From NCBI GenBank assembly GCA_025352785.1, contig JANXSD010000032.1:1-37892 (forward strand): 37,892 bases of DNA. Direction: 5' to 3'. The position numbers and the translations under genes were made by a program. Positions 6,822 to 30,046 of the stretch are shown here, piece after piece. Within the stretch, counting starts at the first letter, position 1. Each line of letters opens with the position of its first letter. Origin of the DNA: Bacteroidota bacterium (GTDB lineage Bacteria; Bacteroidota; Bacteroidia; AKYH767-A; OLB10). Under the pieces are notes generated by a model. The model did no database searches and was not told the origin of the DNA. It saw only the letters and a program-made list of their open reading frames with translations.

Positions 6822-7508
6822 TCATTTGCGCTTTAAAGGATATAAGGATGCAAAAACCAAATTTTCCAAAAATCCGATTACTTTCCCATCATCTTTTATG
6901 TTTCCAAAATCCGTTAACGAAGGAAGATTTCGCATAAAAAAATTTTGATAATGCGCCATCTCAATAATAGTGCTTGACAGCGAACGGGGATATTTATATT
7001 TCGGATTGCATTCTTGAATAATTGCTGCAATCGTGCCGCAAAGGTCTTTGTATGGTTTAAATAATCGTTGCTTATTGTCTTCTGTTACATGCCTTGTCAG
7101 ATATGCTTTCGCACCTTCCATCCTCACAATTTCGTGCAATAGCCGCTCATCAACATGCGTTGTTTGCACATCATCTTTAACCTCTGTGGCAAGTATCTGA
7201 ATTATTTTTTTAAGTTTTATTTCGGGCGACTTGATGTTATTAGTGTGAACCATCACCTTATATTCAAGCCAGCTCCAATACCACGAAACAATGTAAACAA
7301 GTAAACGGTGTTTGTTTTCAAAGTAGCGGTAAATCCCTGCCTCTGTAGTCCCGATTTTTTCAGCAAGTTTTTTGAAAGTGAATAATTCAAATCCTGTTTT
7401 ATGAATGAGAACAATACTGTGCAATAGTATTTCCCTCCCAAGTTCGGTTTCTTCGGGGTTGCGAAGAAAAAGTTTTTCGTTCATCCTTATTTGTAAGGTG
7501 AGTTCCAT
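6822..7508 (-). CDS. TetR/AcrR-family transcriptional regulator
   Basis: A 228-residue regulator from ATG 7508 (MELTLQIRMNEKLFL...); an ATG at 7484 is an alternative start. The helix-turn-helix is typical: SIVLIHKTGFELFTFKKLA then EKIGTTEAGIYRYFENKHRL, with the G-x-YRYF-x-K-LL ending (about residues 30-75). The remaining helices form the ligand-binding/dimer domain, here with unusually aromatic content (VSWYWSWLEY). Known: TetR proteins usually repress a divergent operon and are released by a small ligand or stress. Context: it faces the carbonic anhydrase/TerC/DedA string, and a 34-bp inverted repeat lies between them, so it probably controls that string. The ligand is unknown. Confidence 0.9.
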   Translation of the reverse strand: MELTLQIRMNEKLFLRNPEETELGREILLHSIVLIHKTGFELFTFKKLAEKIGTTEAGIYRYFENKHRLLVYIVSWYWSWLEYKVMVHTNNIKSPEIKLKKIIQILATEVKDDVQTTHVDERLLHEIVRMEGAKAYLTRHVTEDNKQRLFKPYKDLCGTIAAIIQECNPKYKYPRSLSSTIIEMAHYQNFFMRNLPSLTDFGNIKDDGKVIGFLENLVFASLYPLKRK

Positions 7509-7568
7509 AAGCAATATGATTTTGTTGTGAATTTTAAATCCGTTGTAAAAGTAATCATTTATTTTTAA

Positions 7569-7602
7569 ATAGTAATACTATCATTGTAAATATTATTACT
7601 AT
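7569..7602. promoter_or_regulatory. Probable TetR-type operator (34-bp inverted repeat)
   Basis: Arms 7569-7581 and 7590-7602 pair at 12 of 13 positions, with outer perfect arms ATAGTAATA / TATTACTAT and an 8-base centre. The left arm also holds an 11-bp near-palindrome TAGTA-A-TACTA (7570-7580). The right arm runs into the TATCTTTG promoter box at 7600-7607, so a protein bound here would block transcription of the carbonic anhydrase gene. Binding by the adjacent TetR protein is inferred. Confidence 0.55.
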
Positions 7603-7607
7603 CTTTG
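7600..7607 (+). promoter_or_regulatory. -7 promoter box (TATCTTTG) of the carbonic anhydrase/TerC string
   Basis: Perfect TAnnTTTG match, 23 bases before the ATG at 7631; its first three bases lie inside the inverted repeat. I see no good TTG at the expected -33 spacing, which fits a weak or regulated promoter. Confidence 0.55.
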
Positions 7608-7630
7608 CCGCTTAAATAAAATAAGTTAAA

Positions 7631-8326
7631 ATGAAAAAAATCAAAAACATTACAGCAACACTCTGTATTAGCTTGTTTATAGCTTCTTGCGGACAACAGA
7701 AAACTGAAACATCTCATGACGATAAAACTCATGCAACGCATGAAGAAGTTACCATTAACACACCAGACGATGCACTTGCAGCACTTAAAAACGGAAATCA
7801 GCGATTCGTTGACGGCAAGTTGACAAACACCGATTACCAGGAGCAGATTGAACACACAAAATCAGACCAGCATCCGCACTCCTTAATTCTTTCATGCCTT
7901 GATTCACGCATCCCGCCTGAAATTATTTTTGACCAGGGCATCGGAAATATTTTTGTTGCCCGTGTTGCAGGTAATGTGGAAGACCCGAATATTTTAGGCA
8001 GCATGGAATTTGCAACCAAAGTAAAAGGCACAAAACTTATTGTTGTGATGGGGCACAACAAATGCGGTGCGGTTAAAGGTGCTGTTGACAATGCCGAATT
8101 AGGAAACCTTACACAACTTGTTAAGCAGATAAAACCTGCTATCACTGGCGACAAATCCAATCCCGATTTAATGCTTGACGAAACTGCAAAGAATAATGTA
8201 AGGATGACTATTGCAGATATCGTAAAAGACAGCCCTGTGATAAATGAGCTGGTTACAAATGGAAGTGTAAAAATTGTTGGTGCATTTTACGATATCACTT
8301 CGGGTAAAGTCAGTTTCATTGAATAA
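7631..8326 (+). CDS. Beta-class carbonic anhydrase, lipoprotein form
   Basis: A 231-residue protein that interconverts CO2 and bicarbonate. It starts with a lipoprotein signal peptide (MKKIKNITATLCISLFIASC; lipobox Cys20), so the enzyme is probably membrane-anchored outside the cytoplasm. A short His/Asp-rich linker follows, then the beta-CA domain from about residue 45. The zinc site is complete: C89-x-D91-x-R93 (SCLDSR) and H142-x-x-C145 (GHNKCGA). The FDQGIGNIFVARVAGN and ILGSMEFA signatures are present. It is the first gene of the plus-strand module and lies downstream of the operator. A second beta-CA without a signal is at 11101-11733; the two differ in compartment. Confidence 0.95.
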   Translation: MKKIKNITATLCISLFIASCGQQKTETSHDDKTHATHEEVTINTPDDALAALKNGNQRFVDGKLTNTDYQEQIEHTKSDQHPHSLILSCLDSRIPPEIIFDQGIGNIFVARVAGNVEDPNILGSMEFATKVKGTKLIVVMGHNKCGAVKGAVDNAELGNLTQLVKQIKPAITGDKSNPDLMLDETAKNNVRMTIADIVKDSPVINELVTNGSVKIVGAFYDITSGKVSFIE

Positions 8327-8414
8327 CGAATGAAACCAAAAATACAATCGGCCAATTGTTTAAGCAGCGAAAAGTGTAAATACATTAATAATATCAAAAT
8401 AAAAAAGCAAATTT

Positions 8415-8633
8415 ATGAAAGCAGAAATTAAATTCAGTGGCTTTAACTCCCGTCAGGAATTAAAGAATTTCGTTTATGAAAAAGCAAACACGCTCATACG
8501 TATTTATAGAGAATTTATCGACAGCGAAATTTTCCTGCAACTAGATAATTCGCCAACGATAGAAAAGAAATTGTGTGAGATAAGATTGGCAATATCAGGA
8601 AACGATTTTAATGCAAGAACCCGAAGTAAATAA
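8415..8633 (+). CDS. Short HPF/RaiA-like ribosome-associated protein (C-terminally shortened)
   Basis: A 72-residue protein resembling the first two-thirds of the HPF/RaiA (S30AE) fold: a first strand (MKAEIKFSGF), a helix (ELKNFVYEKANTLIRIYREF), a second strand (SEIFLQLDN), then KLCEIRLAISGNDFNA. Family members normally run to about 95-105 residues with a second long helix after the final strand. Here the frame stops right after ARTRSK, so that helix is missing. I see no convincing continuation in another frame. It is either a shortened functional variant or a decaying copy. Full-length HPFs bind the 30S decoding site and silence ribosomes under stress; that role is uncertain for this form. 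It sits between the carbonic anhydrase and terC. Confidence 0.6.
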   Translation: MKAEIKFSGFNSRQELKNFVYEKANTLIRIYREFIDSEIFLQLDNSPTIEKKLCEIRLAISGNDFNARTRSK

Positions 8634-8801
8634 ATTGAATAGGCCAAAACTTAAAAATTGTGAAGGCGCTTAAAAGTAAATAGAAAATCTAAAAATCCAA
8701 ATATTCAATAAAAGAAAAATTGTACCCGTAATTTAAAAACTTACGATAATGAATAAATCAATGTTCCTAAAATTATTTTGTCACACCTCAACAATAAATA
8801 A

Positions 8802-9725
8802 ATGACAACCGAAATTTATTTCTGGATTGGTTTCATCCTCTTCATAATGTTGATGCTTGGAATTGATTTGGGGATTTTCCATCGTAAAACTCATGCCGTC
8901 TCATTTAAAGAATCACTTGCATGGACAGTTGTTTGGGTGGGACTTGCTATGTTGTTTAGCGCAATTGTTTATTTCTGGAAGGGTCCCGAAAAATCAATTG
9001 AGTTTCTAACTGGATATATTATTGAATTATCACTAAGCGTAGATAATTTATTCGTGTTCATTTTAATTTTCTCCTACTTCCAAGTGCCTATACACTACCA
9101 ACACAAAGTATTGTTTTATGGAATATTAGGTGCCCTTGTTATGCGGGTGATATTCATTTTTGCAGGTGTAGCGCTTCTCACTAAATTTCATTGGATAATT
9201 TATGTGTTCGGTGCAGTCATTATTTTTTCAGGATTAAAAATGTTGTTTCAAAAAGATAAAAAAATCGAACCTGATAAAAATCCTGTCATCAGGTTCGTAA
9301 AAAAAATGTTGCCCGTAACACATGAATATCATGGAGACAAATTTTTTGTAAAAATTCAAAAAGGTGTCTTGGCGGCAACACCACTCTTTATTGTTTTGGT
9401 ATTTGTTGAAATAGCCGATTTGATTTTTGCAGTTGACTCCATCCCAGCCATACTTGCAATTACCACCGACACATTTATTGTTTTTACTTCCAATGTATTT
9501 GCAATTCTCGGATTAAGGTCTCTCTATTTTGCACTTGCGGGAATGATAAGCCTTTTCCGATTTCTGCATATTGGCTTGGCGACTATATTAATATTCATCG
9601 GCTTAAAAATGGTATTCTCCGAAGTTTACGATATACCAATTGAATATGCCCTGATTACCGTCTTAAGTATTCTACTCACAAGCATTGCCGCATCATTAAT
9701 TTTAAAAAAAAATGGAACCCAATAA
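8802..9725 (+). CDS. TerC/Alx-family integral membrane protein
   Basis: A 307-residue protein with about seven to nine hydrophobic helices. The family signatures are clear: IIELSLSVDNLFVF (about residues 73-86) and FVEIADLIFAVDSIPA (about 201-216), two acidic motifs within membrane helices. Length matches the roughly 300-residue Alx/TerC class. Known: the family includes tellurium-resistance TerC, the pH-inducible Alx (linked to Mn2+ export) and proteins that supply metal to exported enzymes. Inferred: Mn2+ or proton-linked transport at the inner membrane. Its last 14 bases overlap the start of the small gene at 9712, which ties terC to the following genes in one transcript. Confidence 0.95.
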   Translation: MTTEIYFWIGFILFIMLMLGIDLGIFHRKTHAVSFKESLAWTVVWVGLAMLFSAIVYFWKGPEKSIEFLTGYIIELSLSVDNLFVFILIFSYFQVPIHYQHKVLFYGILGALVMRVIFIFAGVALLTKFHWIIYVFGAVIIFSGLKMLFQKDKKIEPDKNPVIRFVKKMLPVTHEYHGDKFFVKIQKGVLAATPLFIVLVFVEIADLIFAVDSIPAILAITTDTFIVFTSNVFAILGLRSLYFALAGMISLFRFLHIGLATILIFIGLKMVFSEVYDIPIEYALITVLSILLTSIAASLILKKNGTQ

Positions 9726-9891
9726 AAGTAATATACTCTATACGATTACAGCAATCTTCATAATTATGATGATGGGATTTTTAGTTGCCATGGCATCCGT
9801 GTTTTGGATTTCACTTTATCTCGTAATCATGTTGATAATAAAGATAAAAAAAATAGTACGAAATAAATTACCAGCACATCAACTTAAATAA
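9712..9891 (+). CDS. 59-residue two-helix membrane protein overlapping terC
   Basis: An ORF of 59 codons plus stop (MEPNKSNILYTITAI...) starts inside the end of terC (14-base overlap, different frame) and stops six bases before the dedA-family ATG. Residues about 8-42 form one long or two closely spaced hydrophobic helices rich in Ile, Met and Phe. A basic tail (KIKKIVRNK) follows, indicating an inner-membrane protein with a cytoplasmic C-terminus. I do not recognise a family. Its exact fit between two membrane-protein genes, with a 14-base overlap on one side and a 6-base gap on the other, is the main reason to believe it is real. Confidence 0.6.
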   Translation: MEPNKSNILYTITAIFIIMMMGFLVAMASVFWISLYLVIMLIIKIKKIVRNKLPAHQLK

Positions 9892-9897
9892 AAAAAC

Positions 9898-10527
9898 ATG
9901 GAAACTATTTCAGATTTTTTCACCTTGTTATTCGACTCGAAAAAACTAATTCATTACGGCGGATTTTCACTTTTACTCGTAATCATATTTATTGAAACGG
10001 GGCTTGTTTTCGGATTCTTTTTTCCAGGCGACACACTTTTATTTACTGCGGGCTTATTGTGCGGAACAAATGATTTGGAAATAAATATTTTCCTTCTTCT
10101 TTTTTCCGTAACAGGTGCAGCAATTTTAGGAAACCTGATAGGATATATTTCTGGAAAATATTTCGGTAAAAAATTATTTGCAAAAGAAGACTCTTTCTTC
10201 TTTAAAAAACGGCATCTTGAAACTACAAAATCTTATTACGATAAATATGGTGGTGTAGCAATAATAGTTGGTCGATTCTTGCCTGTTGTGCGAACATTCG
10301 TTCCAATTCTTGCAGGAACTATTGATATGAATTTTTTCAAATTTAAACTCTACAACATCACAGGAGCTTTCTTGTGGGTTTGGACACTTATTCCAATCGG
10401 TTATTTTCTCGGCATTAGATTTCCGCAACTAATCCATCAGTTAGAGTATTTCATAATCGGAATTTTTCTCGTTACCACATTATTTTTAATCAAAGGATAT
10501 TTAAAATTTAAAACAAAAAAGCCATGA
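9898..10527 (+). CDS. DedA-family membrane protein
   Basis: A 209-residue inner-membrane protein of the DedA/VTT superfamily. Typical motifs: FIETGLVFGFFFPGDTLLF (about residues 31-50) with the conserved Glu and the FxPGD re-entrant loop, and VGRFLPVVRTFVPILAGT (about 124-141) with the GRFxPxxR signature. Known: DedA members support membrane phospholipid recycling (some flip undecaprenyl phosphate or phosphatidylethanolamine) and are needed for growth at extreme pH or low proton-motive force in E. coli. It starts 6 bases after the small gene and its stop overlaps the next start (ATGA), so translation is probably coupled. Confidence 0.95.
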   Translation: METISDFFTLLFDSKKLIHYGGFSLLLVIIFIETGLVFGFFFPGDTLLFTAGLLCGTNDLEINIFLLLFSVTGAAILGNLIGYISGKYFGKKLFAKEDSFFFKKRHLETTKSYYDKYGGVAIIVGRFLPVVRTFVPILAGTIDMNFFKFKLYNITGAFLWVWTLIPIGYFLGIRFPQLIHQLEYFIIGIFLVTTLFLIKGYLKFKTKKP

Positions 10528-11030
10528 GCAATAAAATGGAATCTGCATTTGAAAAAATACTATTCGCCAGCCGATGGCTGCAAGCACCGCTTTATGCCGG
10601 GCTTATTGTAGGAGGAGTTTTATATGCCTACAAATTCATTGTTGAATTGATACACCTGTGCGTAACCATCAATGAAATCACCGAAACAGCATTGATGCTT
10701 GGTATACTTACATTAGTTGACATAACTATGGTTGCCAATCTTCTTATCATGGTTATCATCGGTGGTTATTCAACATTTGTAAGTCGCTTGGATATTGACA
10801 AGCACGAAGACAAGCCTGAATGGTTGCAAAAAATTGATGCTGGAACATTAAAAGTTAAGCTCTCTGGAGCACTCGTTGGCGTATCAGGTATTCATCTATT
10901 GATAACATTCATTAACATTAACAACTATAAATCAGAACATATTATGTGGCAAGTTATAATACATGTAGTGTTTCTACTTTCATCCGTAATGCTTGCTTAT
11001 TCTGAAAAACTTTTAAATAACAAACACTAA
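10524..11030 (+). CDS. YqhA-family (UPF0114) membrane protein
   Basis: A 168-residue membrane protein with three or four helices. The N-terminal amphipathic stretch MESAFEKILFASRWLQAP followed by LYAGLIVGGVLYAYKF, and the later NLLIMVIIGGYSTFVSR, are typical of the YqhA/UPF0114 (TIGR00645) family. The C-terminal part (KVKLSGALVGVSGIHLLITF) also fits. The family's function is not established. It overlaps the preceding dedA-family gene by 4 bases, so the two are very probably co-translated. Confidence 0.9.
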   Translation: MSNKMESAFEKILFASRWLQAPLYAGLIVGGVLYAYKFIVELIHLCVTINEITETALMLGILTLVDITMVANLLIMVIIGGYSTFVSRLDIDKHEDKPEWLQKIDAGTLKVKLSGALVGVSGIHLLITFININNYKSEHIMWQVIIHVVFLLSSVMLAYSEKLLNNKH

Positions 11031-11100
11031 AAATTTAATTTTAACTTCGCATCATACTAGGAGAATTATTCAAATATGAATCGAAAAAGCGCTAAATGAA

Positions 11101-11733
11101 ATGAGAACTCATACCAAAGAAACACAGGATAATTTGTCACCTGAACTCGCACTTGAAATGTTAAAAGAAGGAAACAAAAGATTTGTAAATAACATCAACG
11201 CTCATCGTAACTTATTAGAACAGGTTAATGAAACATCGTCAGGTCAATTTCCCTTTGCAGCCATTTTGAGTTGCATCGATTCAAGAACTTCTGCGGAACT
11301 TATTTTTGACCAGGGCTTAGGTGACATCTTCAGTATTCGCATTGCGGGAAATATTATTAACGAAGACATTTTAGGAAGCATGGAGTTTGCCTGCAAAATG
11401 GCAGGTTCAAAACTCATAGTTGTGCTTGGGCACACAAAATGCGGAGCTATTGAAGGTGCTTGTAACAATATTATTTTGGGAAATATTACCGCACTTCTTA
11501 ACAAAATAAAACCAGCTATCGATAATGAAACCCTGACTAAATCTGAACGAAACGGAAGCAATGATTCTTTTTTAAAAAATGTAACAAAAATCAATGTTAC
11601 CTTGGCTGTTCAAAAAATAAAAGAACAGAGCATCATTTTAAATGAAATGGAACAGACGAAGCAATTAAAAATCATTGGCGGACTTCACAACATCGACACC
11701 GGACAAGTAACTTTTTACGAACAACTTCAATAA
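11101..11733 (+). CDS. Beta-class carbonic anhydrase, cytoplasmic form
   Basis: A 210-residue beta-carbonic anhydrase with no signal peptide. Zinc site: C58-x-D60-x-R62 (SCIDSR) and H111-x-x-C114 (GHTKCGA). It also has FDQGLGDIFSIRIAGN and ILGSMEFACK. It is clearly similar to the lipoprotein CA at 7631 throughout the catalytic domain but carries a longer loop (about residues 140-160, ...TKSERNGSNDSF...). It is the last gene of the plus-strand module, 70 bases after the yqhA-family gene. With the first CA it could move CO2 and bicarbonate equilibrium on both sides of the inner membrane (inference). Confidence 0.94.
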   Translation: MRTHTKETQDNLSPELALEMLKEGNKRFVNNINAHRNLLEQVNETSSGQFPFAAILSCIDSRTSAELIFDQGLGDIFSIRIAGNIINEDILGSMEFACKMAGSKLIVVLGHTKCGAIEGACNNIILGNITALLNKIKPAIDNETLTKSERNGSNDSFLKNVTKINVTLAVQKIKEQSIILNEMEQTKQLKIIGGLHNIDTGQVTFYEQLQ

Positions 11734-11982: not shown

Positions 11983-12333
11983 ATGAAATTTAAGACTCTC
12001 CTACTTACAACTTACATTTGGCTGCTGACAGTTCAACCTGTTTTGACCGCAATTGCATCAGTATTTAATGTGCATACAGAAGAAAGTTGTGGAGATTCTT
12101 TTTGCATGCACGAACAGCAAGAGAGCAAACAGACTAAGCAAGATCAAAGCGGAGTGTGCAATCCTTTTCTGGCGTGTGCTTATTGTTTAGGTTGCTACTA
12201 GGTTGCTACATTTCCGAACCGACATTTCAAGTTGTATTAATTCAGCACTTAAAAATTTTGCATCCATCAGTTTAAAGAAAATTTCACTTCCGTCTTTTGT
12301 ACTGATAGTTTCCATCCACCAGAAATTGTTTGA
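11983..12333 (+). pseudogene. Small exported Cys-rich protein broken by an 11-bp tandem duplication
   Basis: The intact frame gives 72 residues (stop TAG at 12199): a signal peptide (residues about 4-24), then HTEESCGDSFCMHEQQ and SGVCNPFLACAYCLGCY. Small Bacteroidota proteins of this type, often beside metal-related TonB receptors, continue after the CNPF...C..C motif and end in a W/HPPEIV tail. Here that tail (KENFTSVFCTDSFHPPEIV, stop at 12331) is still readable downstream in the same frame, behind further stops. The break coincides with a perfect duplication of TAGGTTGCTAC (12188-12198, 12199-12209). Removing one copy restores reading to ISEPTFQVVLIQ but leaves one more frameshift before the tail. 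I therefore call it a decaying gene; the short product might still be made. Confidence 0.5.
12188..12209 (+). repeat. Perfect 11-bp tandem duplication
   Basis: TAGGTTGCTAC occurs twice back to back (12188-12198 and 12199-12209). Eleven bases cannot be inserted without a frame change, and the second copy supplies the TAG stop that ends the small Cys-rich ORF. Confidence 0.9.
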
Positions 12334-12385: not shown

Positions 12386-12604
12386 ATGAAAAAGAAAATA
12401 GGTTTAGGCATTATAGCAATGTTAATGATTACAGGTGCATTTGTGTTCGCGAACTGCAACACAAAGAAGGTCGATAACAATTGTCCTGATAAACTAGGTT
12501 GTATAAGTTCCAAGCAAACAACTAAGCCAGTAGTTGCCAAACCAACAGCCACAATCGGAACGAAGGACAATTGTCCGAACACACCTAATTGCATTTGTAA
12601 ATAG
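12386..12604 (+). CDS. Secreted Cys-rich miniprotein with two NCPxxxxC motifs
   Basis: A 72-residue protein: a signal peptide (MKKKIGLGIIAMLMITGAFVFA) followed by a mature peptide of about 50 residues. The mature part has six cysteines, arranged as two similar units: NNCPDKLGC (C33, C39) and DNCPNTPNC-I-C (C63, C69, C71), plus C24 just after the cleavage site. A Thr/Lys/Pro-rich linker separates them. I do not recognise a named family. The paired CPx4C units suggest metal binding or disulfides (inference). It lies between two damaged genes of the TonB-receptor locus and ends at a strong terminator. Confidence 0.7.
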   Translation: MKKKIGLGIIAMLMITGAFVFANCNTKKVDNNCPDKLGCISSKQTTKPVVAKPTATIGTKDNCPNTPNCICK

Positions 12605-12683: not shown

Positions 12684-13040
12684 ATGAAACGAACATTGTT
12701 CAAATTCTTATTTTTGCTGACAGGTATTTGCTGCATTTGAGTTGGACAGCAACGAACGCAACCAGAATTACGAGAAGGAAACTCACTCTTTCATTACTTC
12801 GGTTAAGACAACAGATGATTTTACTACTCATCTTGACAAGAGTACTGATTTGCGTTTTACTTTCAGCAACTTTATTTTTCGCTGCGATTTCCATTCGAAA
12901 GCGTTGCAGTTTTCTTTTTCAAAGAACCTTCACCGCCTGACAAAATTTATTTGCGGCAACTTTCATTACTGATTTTATTTTTTGAATTGCATTGTTTTAT
13001 TCCGACATTTCGGAACAGAGACTATTTTATTTTCAAATAA
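12684..13040 (+). pseudogene. Possible frame-disrupted small exported protein
   Basis: ATG 12684 follows TATCTTCG and opens with a signal-like MKRTLFKFLFLLTGICC, then stops after 18 codons. The reading can be continued in the +1 frame (LDSNERNQNYEKETHSF... to about 12915). It then returns to the first frame with FFKEPSPPDKIYLRQLSLL, which resembles the PP-rich tail of HYC_CC_PP-like proteins such as that at 762-1148. No single frame holds the whole, so two compensating frameshifts would be required. No cysteine motif of the family is visible in the middle. This could instead be non-coding leader of the receptor gene at 13060. Confidence 0.3.
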
Positions 13041-13059
13041 TTCAATTTCAAAAACAGTA

Positions 13060-14730
13060 ATGAAGAAAATATTTCTCATAGTAATAGTAGTGGCTACCAC
13101 TACTACTGCTTATTCGCAAAACACTTTCAAAGCAAAAGTGGTTGACGAACAAAACAAGCAACCGTTATTTGCTGCAACGGTTTCCATTGACACTCTACAA
13201 CTGGGTGCAATCACAGACACCGCAGGTTTGGTAGCAATCAAATATATTCCTAATGGAAAATTTAAAATTCATTTCCGTAACGTCGGCTACAATGAATTGA
13301 GAAAAGAAATTTCATTTCCGCTTGCCAACCCCAATCAAGTTTTTGAAATTGAATTAGAACCCAATACAAAAGAATTAAGCGAAGTTATTGTGCAAACTAC
13401 ACGAACCAATTCCAGAATTGAAGAAATCCCCATTCGTGTTGAAGTAATCGAAGGCGAAGAACTCAACGAAAAGGGAAATATGAAACCATCCAACATTTCC
13501 ATGTTGTTGAGTGAAGGAACTGGGATACAATCACAACAAACATCAGCGGTAAACGGAAATGTAAGCATCCGTTTGCAAGGGCTTGGCGGCAAATACACAC
13601 AAATTCTAAAGGACGGTATTCTTCTGTATGGCGGATTTTCTCAAGGCCTAAGCATCATGCAAATTCCACCACTTGACTTGCAACAAGTGGAAGTAATAAA
13701 AGGTTCATCAAGTTCGCTTTACGGCAGTGATGCCATTGCTGGAATCATAAATTTAATTCCTAAAAAACCACAGAAAAAAAGAGAGTTAACATTTTTAATC
13801 AATCAAACTTCATTATTCGGAAGTGACATCAATGCTTATTTTTCACAGCGATGGAAAAAATTTGGATTCAGTTTCCTTACAGCAAATAATTTTCAATCGG
13901 CACAAGATGTTAACCACGATGGATTTTCTGATTTGCCAAAATCAAAAACATTGAATCTCGCACCAACTTTTTATTATTACTTCAATCCGAAAACAACATT
14001 ACAATTTGGTGTTATCACAACTTATGATAATCGCAAAGGAGGCGACATGAAAGTTTTGAAAAATGAAGCAGATAGTTTGCACAAGTTCTTTGATGAAAAC
14101 ATTTCCAATCGCATTTCAACACAACTGAAATTTCAGAAAGGTAAATTATTCATTCTCAAAAACAACGTATCTTATTTTGACAGAGAAATAAATCAGCCGA
14201 CATTTTCTTTCATCGGGAAGCAAATCAGTAGTTACACTGAAGGAACTTTCAATTTTGATTTCAAGAAAAATCAATTCGTGACAGGAATAAATTTCATCAC
14301 CGAAAATTTTTTGGAAGACAGCAGTAGAAGTCATTTGCAGCGCAACTACAATTATTTTACAACAGGAATTTTTCTGCAAGACGATTGGAAACCTACCGAA
14401 AAATTGACAATTGAGGCAGGACTACGAACCGACTACCAAAACTAATTCGGTTTCTTCGTGTTACCACGATTGAACCTAATGTATAAATTCACAAAAACTT
14501 TTTATGCAAGAGCTGGTGCAAGTTTCGGTTACAAAGTTCCTTCAATATTTTCAACTGCATCCGAAGAAGAAGGAATCAATACTATACAACCGCTTGCAAA
14601 TAATATCAAAGTAGAAAAATCTATCGGAAGAAATCTTGATTTCAATTACAGAACAATTATCGGAAACGAAACTTCTATTTCATTCAATCAATCCTTTTTT
14701 GTAACACAAATAAGTAAGCCATTGGTGTGA
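13060..14730 (+). pseudogene. TonB-dependent receptor with internal stop and missing 3' half
   Basis: Starts at ATG 13060 with a signal peptide (MKKIFLIVIVVATTTTAYSQ). A carboxypeptidase-regulatory-like domain follows (about residues 22-95, with QPLFAATVSIDTL). Next comes the plug (RIEEIPIRVEVIEGEEL, ...SIRLQGLGGKYTQILKDGI, LQQVEVIKGSSSSLYGSDA) and part of the outer-membrane barrel. The frame is interrupted by TAA at 14443-14445, and the same frame goes on without any shift (FGFFVLPRLNLMYKF) to 14730. A single base change thus made the stop. The frame then runs into insertion-sequence DNA, so roughly the last 200 or more barrel residues are absent. Intact relatives transport siderophores, vitamins or metal complexes; the Cys-rich neighbours suggest a metal substrate (inference). 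Almost surely non-functional. Confidence 0.88.
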
Positions 14731-24046: not shown

Positions 24047-27000
24047 ATGGCGAGTTTACATCATAACAAGCTTTTATTTTCATTCCTATTCTTAATTCTC
24101 TTAACATCGAATATTCTACGGGCACAAGTGCCCGTAGCTTCGTTTACAACTGATAAGAATACAGGATGCGCACCTCTTTTGGTAAATTTTACCAACACCT
24201 CTACCAGTGCTGTCTCTTTCACTTGGAATTTCGGGAACTCTAATACTTCAACGATTAGTAATCCTTCAACAGCTTACATTACACCTGGCATTTTTACAGT
24301 AACATTAATCGTTACTTCAGCAGGTGGACAACGCGACACTGCAACAACAATAATTACTGTTGTAAATGATCCGATAGCAGCATTTGTAGCCAACCCATTA
24401 TCAGGATGTGAAGATTATAATATCATTTCATTTACTAATAATTCCATTAATGCGAATTCCTATACTTGGGATTTTGGCGATGGCAACACTTCCATTTTAA
24501 CAAATCCTACTCATACATATTTAAATCCTGGCACCTATAGTATTAAATTAATTGCAATTAATGCTTATGGTTGTCAAAATATAAAAATCAGAAATGCGTA
24601 TGTAATAATTAATCCTAAACCTTCGGCACAATTTACTGCAAACATCACATCAAGTTGTAATGTAAGTACCACTTTCAATTTCACTTCGCAAGGAACAGGA
24701 CTAACAAATTGGCAATGGAATTTCGGTGATGGAACCTCATCAACAACTTCATCACCATCACATCAATATTCAAGCGCTGGAATTTATGCCGTCACTTTAA
24801 TTGCAAGTAATGCAAATGGATGTAGAGATACTTTAGTTAAACCCAATTATATTAATATTGGCTCGTCACTAGTCCCTTCGTTTACGTCAAGTGATACTGC
24901 AGGATGCGCTCCATTAATTATAAATTTTAACGCTACGGTTGCTAATGCGACATCATGGAATTGGACTTTTGGTGATGGCACTTCCTCCACGATAGCTAGT
25001 CCAAGTCATACTTACTCAGCGCCTGGAAATTATTCATTGACCTTAACTGTTACTACACTTAGTGGATGCAATGGATCAATTACAATTCCTCAATATATAA
25101 AAATTGATTCTTTACCAATAGTTAATTTTACGGTTCAGCAAGATACTGGATGTGTTCCATTTTTAGCAAATTTTATCAATACCACAACGGGAGCTACAAG
25201 TTATAGTTGGGACTTTGGCAATGGAGGTACATCTCCTTTACAAAACCCCACTCCAATGTACAATCAAGGAGGTAATTTTAATGTAACATTAACTGGTTAC
25301 TCTTTGCATGGATGTAGTTCTGTCAAAAAAATTAATAACTTAATCAAGGCATGGCTTGTACGTGCAACATTTATTGCAAATCCTCTTAGTGGTTGTCCTG
25401 GTACGGTTGTTCAATTTACGACCAACGGTACCGTAATAGGAATCACAAATTGGTTATGGAATTTTGGTGATGGAACAATCTCCTCATTACAAAATCCTTC
25501 GCATACCTATAACAGCGTTGGGAGCTACACCGCTTGGTTGATCATCACAAATAGTTTTGGCTGTAAGGATACCGTTTATAAATCACATTATATAAATATT
25601 ACAAGTGGAATAGTGCCTTACACGGTTCCTGATACTATCCCTGTTTGTCAAGGTGCGCCAATTGGCTTTTCTGATCCAACTTTAGGAAGTAATAATTGGC
25701 TATGGAATTTTGGTGATGGAACAACTTCGACAAATCAAAATCCAAGTTATACGTATTTCATTCCTGGTCTATACACCGTAACATTAAATACAAGTATGCC
25801 AGGTGGTTGTTCGCAATCTTTTAATCCCTTTGCAATAGTGAATGTAATTCCTTACGATCCAAAACCAATAGATTTAAATTTTATTGGAACATGTAAACCA
25901 TATACCATTTCATTTTCAACTACCACTCCAGACATCACTAGTTATTCTTGGGATTTTGGTGATGGAGGAACATCAACATTAAGTAATCCAACACACATTT
26001 TTCAAACTGCAGGAACTTATGGCATCACATTGAATGTAACTATTGGTGCTGGTTGTCAAACAATAATTACAACAACGGTAACAGTAGGACATGTGAATCC
26101 AATGAGCGTTAATAGTAGTAATATTTGTTTAAGCGATATTAGTCAGTTTACTTTTTTTAATACTGCTGCATTTACTTCCTGGCAATGGGCCTTTGGCGAT
26201 GGATCTACATCTACACTTGCAAGTCCAACTCATATTTACGCTGTTAAAGGATCATACACTCCACTATTAACCACATTAGACACACTGGGCTGCCGTGATA
26301 CTTTTGCGTTAGCTGCGATCTTAGTTAATAATCCTATTCCATCCTTTTCTGTTAATCAAACTCCATGTATAAACGCATCAGTGCAATTTCAAAATACGAG
26401 CACGAATGCAACTTCTTATTTATGGGATTTTGGTGATGGAACTACGAGTAATGATCCTAATCCAGTTCACACCTATACAGTTTCGGGGAACTTCACCATC
26501 CTACTTTCTGCAACATCTGATTCCTGCACACGAACCTCCACATTTTCGAATTTTATCACTGTAATTGATCCGGTTTGCAGCTTTATAGTTTCTACAAGTG
26601 GGCAATGTATTCCGATCTCTGCGCAATTTACTGATGGAAGTCCTACAGCAATTAATTGGTTGTGGAATTTTGGTGATGGAACAAATTCGTCTCAGCACAA
26701 TCCAACGCATATTTATACACTCGCACCTACTGATTCCATTAAATTAACAATAACAGATGTTCATGGTTGCATTAAATCATATAGTCAAAAAGCAATAAAT
26801 TATTATTCGGCAGTTGCAACGATCGACAATACTACTGGTTGCGTACCTCATACATCACAATTTACTGATTTATCTAATTCAGCTACATCGTGGTTATGGA
26901 ATTTTGGCGACAACACTACTTCGACATTGCAAAATCCACCACATAACTATATCACAGCAGGGATATTTACAGTAACGCTTATTGCGCATTTTCCTGGAGG

Positions 27001-30000
27001 ATGCATTGACACCGCAGTGTATTCAAACATGATTACTATTGAAAAGCCCACTGCCAATTTTTATTCTCCAACTATTGGCGGATGTTCGCCAACACAAATA
27101 AGTTTTACAAATCAATCATTTAATGCAACTACCTATTTGTGGAATTTTGGTGATGCAGGAACTTCAACAACAGATAATCCATCACATATTTATTACATCC
27201 CTGGATATTATGATGTAATGCTTATTGCGACATCATCAAATGGATGCAGTGATACTATTAAAAAGATAAATTACATTCACATTCCTGGCACCAATTCGCA
27301 TTTCAACATTTCATCAACATCAGGATGCGAATCACTTGCAGTAACATTTACTGATTCTTCCATAAATGCATCAAGTTGGTTTTGGAATTTCGGCGATGGA
27401 TTTATCGACTCTATTCAAAATCCAATTCATCTTTACCAAGATACTGGAGCTTATACGGTAACCCTTATCACACAAGATACAACAGGATGCACGTCATCCT
27501 ATACGTTTCCATTACCTGTAAATATTTATCCGAATCCAATTGCACATGCAAGCGTTACTGATACTATTGGATGTTCATCGTACCTAACTATTTGGCACAA
27601 TGAATCTCAATATGCAAATTCATACTTATGGTTATTTGGTGATAATGATAGTAGCAATGCCATTGATCCAACACACACCTATCTTTCAGGTGGAATTTAT
27701 CAACCAACAATAATTGCAATGACACAATATGGTTGTCGAGATACCTTTCAAATCCCTGTAAATATCCATGTTTTACAAACCCCCGTTTCTTCATTCAATG
27801 TGAGTGATACGATTGCTTGCAATCCTTCAAACATTACATTTACTAGTACTGCTACCTTAACACAAAATCCATCCTTTTCATGGACTTTTGGAAATAGTCA
27901 AACTGCGAATGGATCAACCGTTGCAACAAATTATTCAATAGCTGGAACCTATCAGACACAACTTATTGTCACTAATAATAATGGGTGTATGGATAGTACA
28001 ACAATTAACCTACAAATAAATCCTTCACCTGTTGCTGCTGCTACGACGGATATTTCAGAAGGATGTCAAAACTTGCAAGTAAATTTTAGCAATAATTCCA
28101 GTGGAGCTATCAGTTACACATGGCACTTTGGGAATGGCGATTCTTCCATTTTATTTTCTCCAACTTACATTTACCTTCAAGCAGGGATTTTTAACGCATC
28201 TGTTATTGCAGAGAATGGATTTGGTTGTAAGAATACATTCAATATAAATCCAGTAATAACAGTTCATGCAACTCCTTACGCATCATTTATTGCAGATAAT
28301 TATACGGGATGTGCACCTTCACAAATTCAATTTACAAATCAATCAACTAATTTAGTTCAGCCTAATTATAGTTGGGACTTTAATGATGGAAACCTTTCGA
28401 ATGCAACAAATCCATCACATCTTTTCATCAACGATTCCCTATATGTTGTTCAGCTAGAAGTAGTGAATGCATTTGGATGTAAAAGCGATACAAGTATCAA
28501 CGTGACCATAAATCCAACACCTATTGCAAATGCAAATATTGATGCAACTGTAGGATGTTCGCCGTTAGCAATTACCTTTAATAATTTAAGTTTAGGTGCA
28601 ACAAATTATTTTTGGAATTTTGGTGATAATGATACGAGTACTAGTATTTACCCCGTTCATTCCTATCAATGGGGAGGACTTTTCAATCCCTATTTAATTG
28701 CATCAAATAATTTTGGTTGCAGTGATACATTTTATTTACCAATGATAACTATCAATCAAAGTCCGGTTGCTGATTTTATTGCAGACTCTCAAAAAGGATG
28801 TGTTGGATCTCCAATACAATTCACCAACTTAACTCCAACAATTTACAATCCTATTTTTAATTGGGACTTTGGCTTTACAACATCAACCATTCAAAATCCA
28901 TTGATCGTTTATAACACACCTGGATTTTATGATGTAACATTAACAATTACCAATAGCAATGGATGCTCGAGTACCTATACTGAAACAGCATATATTGAAA
29001 TTTACGATACACTTCCACCTCCACCAGATTCAATTTTATCGGTTACCGTGTTAACAGATACTGAAGTTCAAATTACATGGGCAAATAGTAATGCTACTGA
29101 TTTAAAAGCATACATGCTTTATCGTTATAATTCAGCAACAACAAATTATCAATTAATTTACACAGACCATAATCCTGCAACTGCTTCCATAAAACCCACA
29201 AGTAGTTTCACTGAAACAAATCTTAACACCTTAACAAATACGTATACTTATAAATTACAAACTATAGATTTATGTAATAATGTTTTGCCATTACAACAAC
29301 TGCAGGAACATACCACGATCAACATTACTGCACAGCAAGCAGGCCAAAATATTCGTGTGAGATGGTCGGCTTATGGTGGATGTACTGTAACCAATTATGA
29401 ACTCTGGCGTGCAGAAGTTTCGAATGGAATATTCCAACAAATTGCACTCGTTGCTGGAAACAAATTTACGTATCTCGATACTACTTTAGTTTGTCCTTTT
29501 AATTATTCCTATCGAGTAATTGCAACCGATCTTTGTGGCTCAATTTATACTTCTAATAGTGATACTTCAGTCGCTCGACCTATCAATATTTTAGAAGATC
29601 AAAAAGTTGAAATCATACGATCAACAGTAATAAATAATTTGCAAGTATTGACAGAATGGCTTCCTCCTCTTTTACATCCAGAAAGAGTCTTATCGTATTC
29701 GATTTTGCGGTCTACCGATAAAGTGAATTTTAATAAAGTAGGTTCTGTCCCTGTTGGGATAACTACATTCACCGATAATCAAGTGGATGTTCAAAAGCGA
29801 GATTATTATTATCGTATTGATGTAATTAATGATTGTGAATTAGCAGGAAAGATAAGTAATGAGGGTTCTTCTATTTTACTAATTGGAAAACAAACCGATT
29901 TAAAAACAGATCTTATTTGGACTCCTTATAAAGAATGGCAACCTGGTGTGGAAAATTATTCTATTGAACGACAAAGACCCGATGGAACTTGGGAATTAGT

Positions 30001-30046
30001 AAAAGTAGTTGATGGCAATATCACCACTATGCAAATTGACGAGTAA
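24047..30046 (+). CDS. Giant secreted PKD-repeat protein (1,999 residues)
   Basis: Signal peptide (LLFSFLFLILLTSNILRAQ, ending near residue 27), then 20 PKD-like domains of about 80-88 residues up to about residue 1655. Each is centred on a W-x-FGDG-type core (for example FTWNFGNSNTS, YTWDFGDGNTS, WLWNFGDGTTS). Most repeats carry one Cys near the start (TGCAP, SGCEP) and one near the end (GCRDT, GCKDT). Three complete Fn3-like domains (about 1660-1965) and the first half of a fourth (YSIERQRPDGTWELVKVVDG) follow, then the stop. Known: such proteins in gliding Bacteroidota are adhesins or sugar-binding surface proteins exported by T9SS. Odd: it ends mid-domain with no T9SS sorting domain. Confidence 0.93.
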   Translation: MASLHHNKLLFSFLFLILLTSNILRAQVPVASFTTDKNTGCAPLLVNFTNTSTSAVSFTWNFGNSNTSTISNPSTAYITPGIFTVTLIVTSAGGQRDTATTIITVVNDPIAAFVANPLSGCEDYNIISFTNNSINANSYTWDFGDGNTSILTNPTHTYLNPGTYSIKLIAINAYGCQNIKIRNAYVIINPKPSAQFTANITSSCNVSTTFNFTSQGTGLTNWQWNFGDGTSSTTSSPSHQYSSAGIYAVTLIASNANGCRDTLVKPNYINIGSSLVPSFTSSDTAGCAPLIINFNATVANATSWNWTFGDGTSSTIASPSHTYSAPGNYSLTLTVTTLSGCNGSITIPQYIKIDSLPIVNFTVQQDTGCVPFLANFINTTTGATSYSWDFGNGGTSPLQNPTPMYNQGGNFNVTLTGYSLHGCSSVKKINNLIKAWLVRATFIANPLSGCPGTVVQFTTNGTVIGITNWLWNFGDGTISSLQNPSHTYNSVGSYTAWLIITNSFGCKDTVYKSHYINITSGIVPYTVPDTIPVCQGAPIGFSDPTLGSNNWLWNFGDGTTSTNQNPSYTYFIPGLYTVTLNTSMPGGCSQSFNPFAIVNVIPYDPKPIDLNFIGTCKPYTISFSTTTPDITSYSWDFGDGGTSTLSNPTHIFQTAGTYGITLNVTIGAGCQTIITTTVTVGHVNPMSVNSSNICLSDISQFTFFNTAAFTSWQWAFGDGSTSTLASPTHIYAVKGSYTPLLTTLDTLGCRDTFALAAILVNNPIPSFSVNQTPCINASVQFQNTSTNATSYLWDFGDGTTSNDPNPVHTYTVSGNFTILLSATSDSCTRTSTFSNFITVIDPVCSFIVSTSGQCIPISAQFTDGSPTAINWLWNFGDGTNSSQHNPTHIYTLAPTDSIKLTITDVHGCIKSYSQKAINYYSAVATIDNTTGCVPHTSQFTDLSNSATSWLWNFGDNTTSTLQNPPHNYITAGIFTVTLIAHFPGGCIDTAVYSNMITIEKPTANFYSPTIGGCSPTQISFTNQSFNATTYLWNFGDAGTSTTDNPSHIYYIPGYYDVMLIATSSNGCSDTIKKINYIHIPGTNSHFNISSTSGCESLAVTFTDSSINASSWFWNFGDGFIDSIQNPIHLYQDTGAYTVTLITQDTTGCTSSYTFPLPVNIYPNPIAHASVTDTIGCSSYLTIWHNESQYANSYLWLFGDNDSSNAIDPTHTYLSGGIYQPTIIAMTQYGCRDTFQIPVNIHVLQTPVSSFNVSDTIACNPSNITFTSTATLTQNPSFSWTFGNSQTANGSTVATNYSIAGTYQTQLIVTNNNGCMDSTTINLQINPSPVAAATTDISEGCQNLQVNFSNNSSGAISYTWHFGNGDSSILFSPTYIYLQAGIFNASVIAENGFGCKNTFNINPVITVHATPYASFIADNYTGCAPSQIQFTNQSTNLVQPNYSWDFNDGNLSNATNPSHLFINDSLYVVQLEVVNAFGCKSDTSINVTINPTPIANANIDATVGCSPLAITFNNLSLGATNYFWNFGDNDTSTSIYPVHSYQWGGLFNPYLIASNNFGCSDTFYLPMITINQSPVADFIADSQKGCVGSPIQFTNLTPTIYNPIFNWDFGFTTSTIQNPLIVYNTPGFYDVTLTITNSNGCSSTYTETAYIEIYDTLPPPPDSILSVTVLTDTEVQITWANSNATDLKAYMLYRYNSATTNYQLIYTDHNPATASIKPTSSFTETNLNTLTNTYTYKLQTIDLCNNVLPLQQLQEHTTINITAQQAGQNIRVRWSAYGGCTVTNYELWRAEVSNGIFQQIALVAGNKFTYLDTTLVCPFNYSYRVIATDLCGSIYTSNSDTSVARPINILEDQKVEIIRSTVINNLQVLTEWLPPLLHPERVLSYSILRSTDKVNFNKVGSVPVGITTFTDNQVDVQKRDYYYRIDVINDCELAGKISNEGSSILLIGKQTDLKTDLIWTPYKEWQPGVENYSIERQRPDGTWELVKVVDGNITTMQIDE
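24128..29010 (+). repeat. Array of 20 PKD-domain coding repeats
   Basis: Protein-level tandem repeats with a period of roughly 250-260 bases. The conserved DNA core encodes W-N/D-F-G-D-G-x-T-S. Copies are diverged rather than identical at the DNA level, so the array is old, although local stretches (TGGAATTTTGGTGATGGAAC and close variants) recur many times. Confidence 0.85.

Follow-up and report, generated by a model that had tools for sequence, protein, structure and literature searches.

We describe a putative TetR-controlled operon in the genome of a Bacteroidota bacterium (assembly GCA_025352785.1, contig JANXSD010000032.1; the whole stretch of 37,892 nucleotides is called the window hereafter). 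Between positions 6,822 and 11,733, seven plus-strand genes and a divergent TetR-family gene were confirmed in position and strand. The seven encode two beta-carbonic anhydrases (CA1 and CA2), a short HPF-like open reading frame (ORF), TerC, a 59-aa hydrophobic ORF, DedA and YqhA. We consider it fairly probable (roughly 0.6) that this locus is a TetR-repressed operon for inorganic-carbon/pH and envelope-metal homeostasis. The evidence consists of a module conserved in relatives, a conserved predicted operator lying over the promoter, and carbon-related genes that recur beside the same type of regulator. Judged from these genome comparisons, the operon appears to be a reduced member of a larger Bacteroidia regulon defined by this TetR and its operator, with SulP, bestrophin, SbtA, carbonic anhydrase, TerC, DedA, zf-TFIIB, amphi-Trp, SPFH, isocitrate dehydrogenase and an ABC/HlyD-type exporter as putative targets.

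Operator and Promoter

The region between the TetR gene and CA1 contains an inverted repeat that was noticed in a first-pass annotation of this DNA, and the repeat is real. Its first site (AATAGTAATACTATC, positions 7,568–7,582) is palindromic and is the sole exact copy in the 3.46-Mb host genome. The second site (AATATTATTACTATC, 7,589–7,603) has one mismatch, lies 21 bp from the first and overlaps a Bacteroidota-type -7 box (TATCTTTG, consensus TAnnTTTG; 7,600–7,607, plus strand) upstream of CA1. No other TAnnTTTG box stands directly before a plus-strand gene of the module, which fits a single predicted transcript. The box at 7,600 is thus the predicted sole plausible promoter of the operon, and the tandem operator pair lies over it.

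We compared the neighborhoods of 73 TetR homologs, a sample of the subfamily rather than of all Bacteroidia since the search depth was set by similarity to the window protein. Upstream of the TetR gene, the palindrome RATAGYAWTRCTATY is conserved with at most one mismatch in 59 of the 73 homologs vs. 14 of 7,300 shuffled regions, the motif having been defined on part of those same 73 promoters. It is palindromic in the orthologs too, and the spacing between operator and -7 box seen in the window recurs in many homologous promoters. We infer that the TetR protein is a local repressor that acts via the operator in the divergent region and may be released by a ligand.

Because of the way in which the motif was defined, genome G155, which belongs to the taxonomic order of the window, offers a cleaner test. 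The exact operator GATAGTAWTACTATC occurs at only two sites in this genome: between the TetR and TerC genes, and before an amphi-Trp/zf-TFIIB/DedA operon on another contig. The pattern had been chosen before the latter site came to light, and the target families of G155 are those found together in locus L020 (described below). A control with the reversed pattern gave no sites in 14 genomes. The second G155 site is the best single evidence for the module as one regulon. Along with the conserved gene order and the shared operator, this split regulon lends strong comparative support to the proposal of the first-pass annotation that the genes form one TetR-controlled unit.

A scan for extra sites in 34 genomes yielded 54 operator sites vs. 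10 with the reversed pattern, most of the 54 being located at a TetR promoter. Many of the extra sites fall inside ORFs and were dismissed as noise. Only the sites before isocitrate dehydrogenase, SPFH genes and amphi-Trp/zf-TFIIB/DedA look meaningful; one more precedes an ATPase-like gene (L203) outside this theme. In genome G699, the operator is found 49 bp before an NADP-isocitrate dehydrogenase gene, away from TetR. This gene (named by eye) is divergent from TetR in L112, L169, and L170; across these loci and L205, it is either divergent from TetR or located 49 bp downstream of an exact operator. Isocitrate dehydrogenase, an enzyme of the tricarboxylic acid cycle, thus apparently belongs to the same regulon. 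A plasmid of Hymenobacter yonginensis carries TetR and, divergent from it, an SPFH gene in a cluster that ends with a sodium:proton antiporter and a DUF2254 gene; the operator there deviates from the consensus by one mismatch.

Neighbors of the TetR Subfamily

Bicarbonate transporters are found among both SulP and SbtA proteins, and bicarbonate is one of the anions that bestrophins conduct. Among the 73 neighborhoods, 20 contain a carbonic anhydrase, 19 a SulP/bestrophin/SbtA-type gene and five a TerC gene, with at least one of these in 28. The neighboring genes were called by a simple longest-ORF rule and labeled by phmmer, which missed some labels (L166/L222), and SbtA was named by eye from the L141 sequence and by similarity, not by a family model. 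A survey of the class gave 87 carbonic anhydrase matches in 247 genomes (~0.35 per genome), from which we estimate a chance expectation of ~0.1 carbonic anhydrase neighbors in 73 vs. the 20 seen. The inorganic-carbon/TerC label is clustered on the TetR tree: it needs 11 changes, against 22.4 after shuffling, and none of 500 shuffles gave so low a number.

Several arrangements recur opposite TetR: SulP with carbonic anhydrase (L159, L163, L165), bestrophin with carbonic anhydrase (L160, L161, L113, and L222, where the carbonic anhydrase is hidden by an antisense ORF), SbtA (L174), TerC (L168, L142), and DedA followed further on by zf-TFIIB and TerC (L173). The recurrence of the same TetR clade and operator beside SulP, bestrophin, SbtA, carbonic anhydrase, and TerC, spread over many families, supports the inorganic-carbon link that the first-pass annotation had drawn. 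In other neighborhoods (e.g., L122, L164, L194), an exporter stands beside TetR under the same operator.

Conservation of the Module in Related Genomes

Relatives of the module were found via YqhA, which few genomes of the class have (13 of 247), and their gene families were named from Pfam. Looked for in other Bacteroidota genomes as the first-pass annotation had suggested, the set of CA1, TerC, DedA, and YqhA was found again in L020 and L021. Both keep the divergent TetR gene and the order CA1, TerC, DedA-YqhA, interspersed with extra stress genes. L020, from a metagenome-assembled genome (MAG) labeled Chitinophaga pinensis, starts opposite TetR with CA1, SPFH, a zinc-ribbon membrane protein, amphi-Trp, and a full-length HPF, and continues with zf-TFIIB, DedA, TerC, UspA (universal stress protein), DedA-DUF454, YqhA, and a bestrophin-like gene. 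L021 (the same region as G214), from the taxonomic order of the window, encodes CA2, CA1, zf-TFIIB, DedA, TerC, UspA, DedA, and YqhA opposite TetR. The window TetR is 77–89% identical to those of L021 and L020, its YqhA 80–86% identical to theirs, and its TerC 81% identical to that of L021/G214; its DedA scores 276–293 bits against DedA of L020/L021.

Compared with L020 and L021, the window carries a reduced version of the module, with the 59-aa ORF in the position of UspA, a probably decaying HPF gene and no zf-TFIIB, of which no relative was found in the host genome. The HPF/S30AE-like ORF (8,415–8,633, plus strand; 21.4 bits, cut-off 23.7) is 72 aa long vs. 98 aa for its homolog in L020. 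Its C-terminus is missing, and a degenerate remnant of it is visible in another reading frame, so that the ORF is probably a decaying gene. The 59-aa ORF (9,712–9,891, plus strand) has no family match. An open frame of such length in that interval has a chance probability of ~0.0045, which makes a chance frame unlikely. No homolog of it turned up among 395 genomes sampled from the class or in the fetched loci, and it was rejected as a conserved component for this reason. Of the seven-gene set proposed earlier, the genes are thus real and CA1, TerC, DedA, and YqhA (and CA2) are conserved, while HPF is truncated and the 59-aa ORF is an ORFan.

In a second arrangement (L024–L029, L053), which lacks TetR, TerC and YqhA are grouped with DedA-type genes and, at some loci, with zf-TFIIB as well. 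L024 (7,038–12,079) brings together DedA, TerC, YqhA, zf-TFIIB, a TerB-like gene, the Mn exporter MntP, and CA2. In Bacteroidota, small secreted-looking proteins ending with WQPPK are repeatedly encoded a few genes upstream of TerC, as at L024:6178, L025:6203, L026:5192, L029:7141, and L144:8176. Within the window's own family, the module was found in no other sampled genome, with partial relatives in G011 only (L141:8428–12306). There, a related CA1 adjoins an SbtA-like gene, with TerC and a divergent LysR gene nearby; the latter is possibly an alternative carbon regulator. YqhA proteins with 65–77% identity occur in a Flavobacteriia MAG, in Bdellovibrionales and in a Parcubacteria MAG (L030–L039). 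Such identity is unusually high for distant hosts and suggests horizontal transfer or strong constraint. A plasmid or mobile copy of the module was considered and rejected: the plasmid relatives of YqhA are all below 60% identity, and plasmid-borne TetR is represented by one distant homolog.

Gene Families of the Locus

Families were assigned with Pfam/NCBIfam models and their cut-offs. The TetR gene (6,822–7,508, minus strand) is divergent from the operon and matches TetR_N above cut-off (33.2 bits). ATG at 7,508 is the likelier start, TTG at 7,514 being still possible. A PDB search with its sequence gave matches mostly at the level of the helix-turn-helix and no clue to a ligand. CA1 (7,631–8,326, plus strand; Pro_CA 136 bits) carries the lipobox IASC and keeps the zinc/catalytic residues (CLDSR and HNKC); its nearest solved structure is 1ym3/2a5v. 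CA2 (11,101–11,733, plus strand; Pro_CA 130 bits) keeps them as well (CIDSR and HTKC), has no visible signal peptide, and has relatives in L021 and beside SulP/bestrophin elsewhere. Both enzymes exceed the PRK15219 cut-off. The lipobox of CA1 and the missing signal sequence of CA2 agree with the earlier suggestion of carbonic anhydrases on both sides of the inner membrane.

TerC (8,802–9,725, plus strand) is a TerC/Alx-type metal-homeostasis membrane protein (TIGR03718, 407 bits, cut-off 246). The host has two more TerC genes, but neither has other module genes beside it, and paralogous modules at these places were therefore rejected. The VTT-domain protein DedA (9,898–10,527, plus strand; PF09335, 63 bits) contains the motifs E..PGD (as ETGLVFGFFFPGD) and RF.P..R (as GRFLPVVR). 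YqhA (10,524–11,030, plus strand) is a UPF0114 membrane protein (TIGR00645, 198 bits, cut-off 144). TerC runs 14 bp into the 59-aa ORF, which is followed by DedA after a spacing of 6 bp, and the last 4 bp of DedA are shared with YqhA.

Downstream of the operon, a TonB-receptor-like frame (window positions 12,982–14,730) stops at 14,445 and a similar stretch restarts at 14,458, possibly representing a broken receptor gene. It is preceded by two small Cys-rich ORFs (11,983–12,201 and 12,386–12,604). Further on, positions 24,047–30,046 encode a protein of 1,999 aa with many PKD-like repeats (named by eye).

Proposed Role and Alternative Explanations

Beta-carbonic anhydrases interconvert CO2 and bicarbonate, and the DedA family has been linked to the proton-motive force and the flipping of undecaprenyl phosphate or other lipids. 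In the mechanism that we propose, a TetR dimer would bind the tandem palindromic operators over the promoter region and the -7 box and block transcription, until a signal frees TetR and leads to the joint production of exported CA1, cytosolic CA2, and the membrane proteins. The two enzymes would then convert CO2 to bicarbonate and back on either side of the inner membrane, accompanied by TerC, DedA, and YqhA, of which TerC may serve metal (mainly Mn2+) homeostasis or the metalation of exported enzymes. The likeliest purpose would be inorganic-carbon and pH homeostasis coupled to envelope protection. Tentatively, the TetR protein might be the regulator by which heterotrophic Bacteroidia sense their inorganic-carbon status (bicarbonate/CO2 or a reporting metabolite) and adjust transcription, acting via GATAGTAWTACTATC on carbonic anhydrases, SulP, bestrophin, SbtA, TerC, and isocitrate dehydrogenase; the operon of the window would then be an extended version linking carbon balance with envelope/metal homeostasis.

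Some findings weigh against the proposed homeostasis operon. The full module is rare, occurring in the window, L020, and L021, and the host is represented by a draft assembly of 197 contigs. Internal promoters could fit into the gaps of 88, 168, and 70 bp between its genes. An AlphaFold prediction of the TetR protein, based on an alignment of three sequences, is all-helical but of low confidence and unusable for a fold search. The commonest partner of the regulator is an ABC/HlyD-type exporter (44 of 73 neighborhoods; five of the 28 with a carbon-related or TerC gene hold both), and since such an exporter adjoins the wider TetR subfamily more often than a CO2 gene does, something other than CO2 or pH may be the signal. 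These exporters, together with the Usp, HPF, SPFH, amphi-Trp, and zf-TFIIB genes of L020 and the SPFH and Na+/H+ antiporter genes beside TetR on the Hymenobacter plasmid, could also speak for a general envelope/oxidative stress cassette. Drugs or lipids are frequent ligands of TetR proteins; here, TetR would sense a membrane-active or toxic compound, all genes would serve defense and CO2 chemistry would be incidental. Overexpression of yqhA in Escherichia coli moreover raises H2O2 resistance (PMC8228696). We regard such a cassette as rather unlikely, as it leaves the repeated pairing of SulP with carbonic anhydrase, of bestrophin with carbonic anhydrase and the presence of SbtA unexplained, these being genes of bicarbonate and not of defense.

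TerC proteins of the Alx type have been tied to Mn homeostasis by efflux and to the metalation of secreted enzymes (PMC10550928). The locus could accordingly be read as a metal-stress response in which TerC (and MntP in relatives) exports Mn2+ or metalates exported enzymes, with CA1 as a client; CA1 is indeed an exported metalloenzyme of the same operon, and MntP adjoins TerC-YqhA-zf-TFIIB in L024. This is improbable: an Rfam scan of the window returned a single tRNA, with no yybP-ykoY Mn riboswitch upstream of TerC, the regulator is not of a metal sensor family, and SulP, bestrophin, and SbtA have no known metal role. That the genes are unrelated and neighbors by chance would be in line with a composition that varies among genomes and with their absence from other sampled family members, save the partial relatives in G011. 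This explanation is very improbable and already disfavored by the gene order kept in L020/L021 and the common operator on the split regulon of G155.

Comparison With Known Systems

Neither the module nor a TetR regulator of carbonic anhydrase, SulP, or TerC was described in the literature that we searched. The cyanobacterial CcmR/CmpR uptake genes for CO2 concentration (PMC3401165) resemble the regulon as a repressor-controlled set with bicarbonate transporters, SbtA being a target in some Bacteroidia relatives, and the isocitrate dehydrogenase target recalls the sensing of 2-oxoglutarate and NADP+ by CcmR (PMC3401165). Because of this parallel and this target, a central-carbon metabolite is at most a reasonable first guess for the TetR signal. 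CcmR, however, is LysR-type and serves Rubisco, whereas here the regulator is TetR-type, has another operator, and includes TerC, DedA, and YqhA among its putative targets; no Rubisco or carboxysome genes were recognized among the window ORFs, read by eye.

The Alx/TerC and MntP systems of Mn2+ homeostasis (PMC10550928, PMC9603457) are comparable in that the window TerC belongs to the Alx subfamily by a curated model and MntP stands beside TerC in L024. They differ by their yybP-ykoY riboswitch, which is absent here, where control would be by TetR and coupled to carbonic anhydrases. Pairs of SulP or bestrophin with carbonic anhydrase share the CA2-type enzyme and, in other Bacteroidia, the same TetR and operator, but the window has neither SulP nor bestrophin, while L020 has its bestrophin-like gene after YqhA. 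The stress-tolerance islands of Proteobacteria (tLST), with ClpK, FtsH, and YfdX among their signature genes, are also horizontally patchy sets of membrane and protein-protection genes. None of these three was seen among the labeled genes, no specific search having been made.

Significance

The sensing of CO2/bicarbonate and the control of its supply in non-photosynthetic bacteria are poorly known. A TetR subfamily with a defined operator beside carbonic anhydrases, three families of bicarbonate transporters or channels, and TerC provides a directly testable handle on this question, and it would bring YqhA, TerC, DedA, zf-TFIIB, and amphi-Trp, all of them poorly understood families, into one regulon. 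In many other Bacteroidia, relatives of this repressor and site recur next to a bicarbonate transporter, a carbonic anhydrase, or TerC, which suggests that a control system not described so far governs inorganic carbon and envelope homeostasis in this class.

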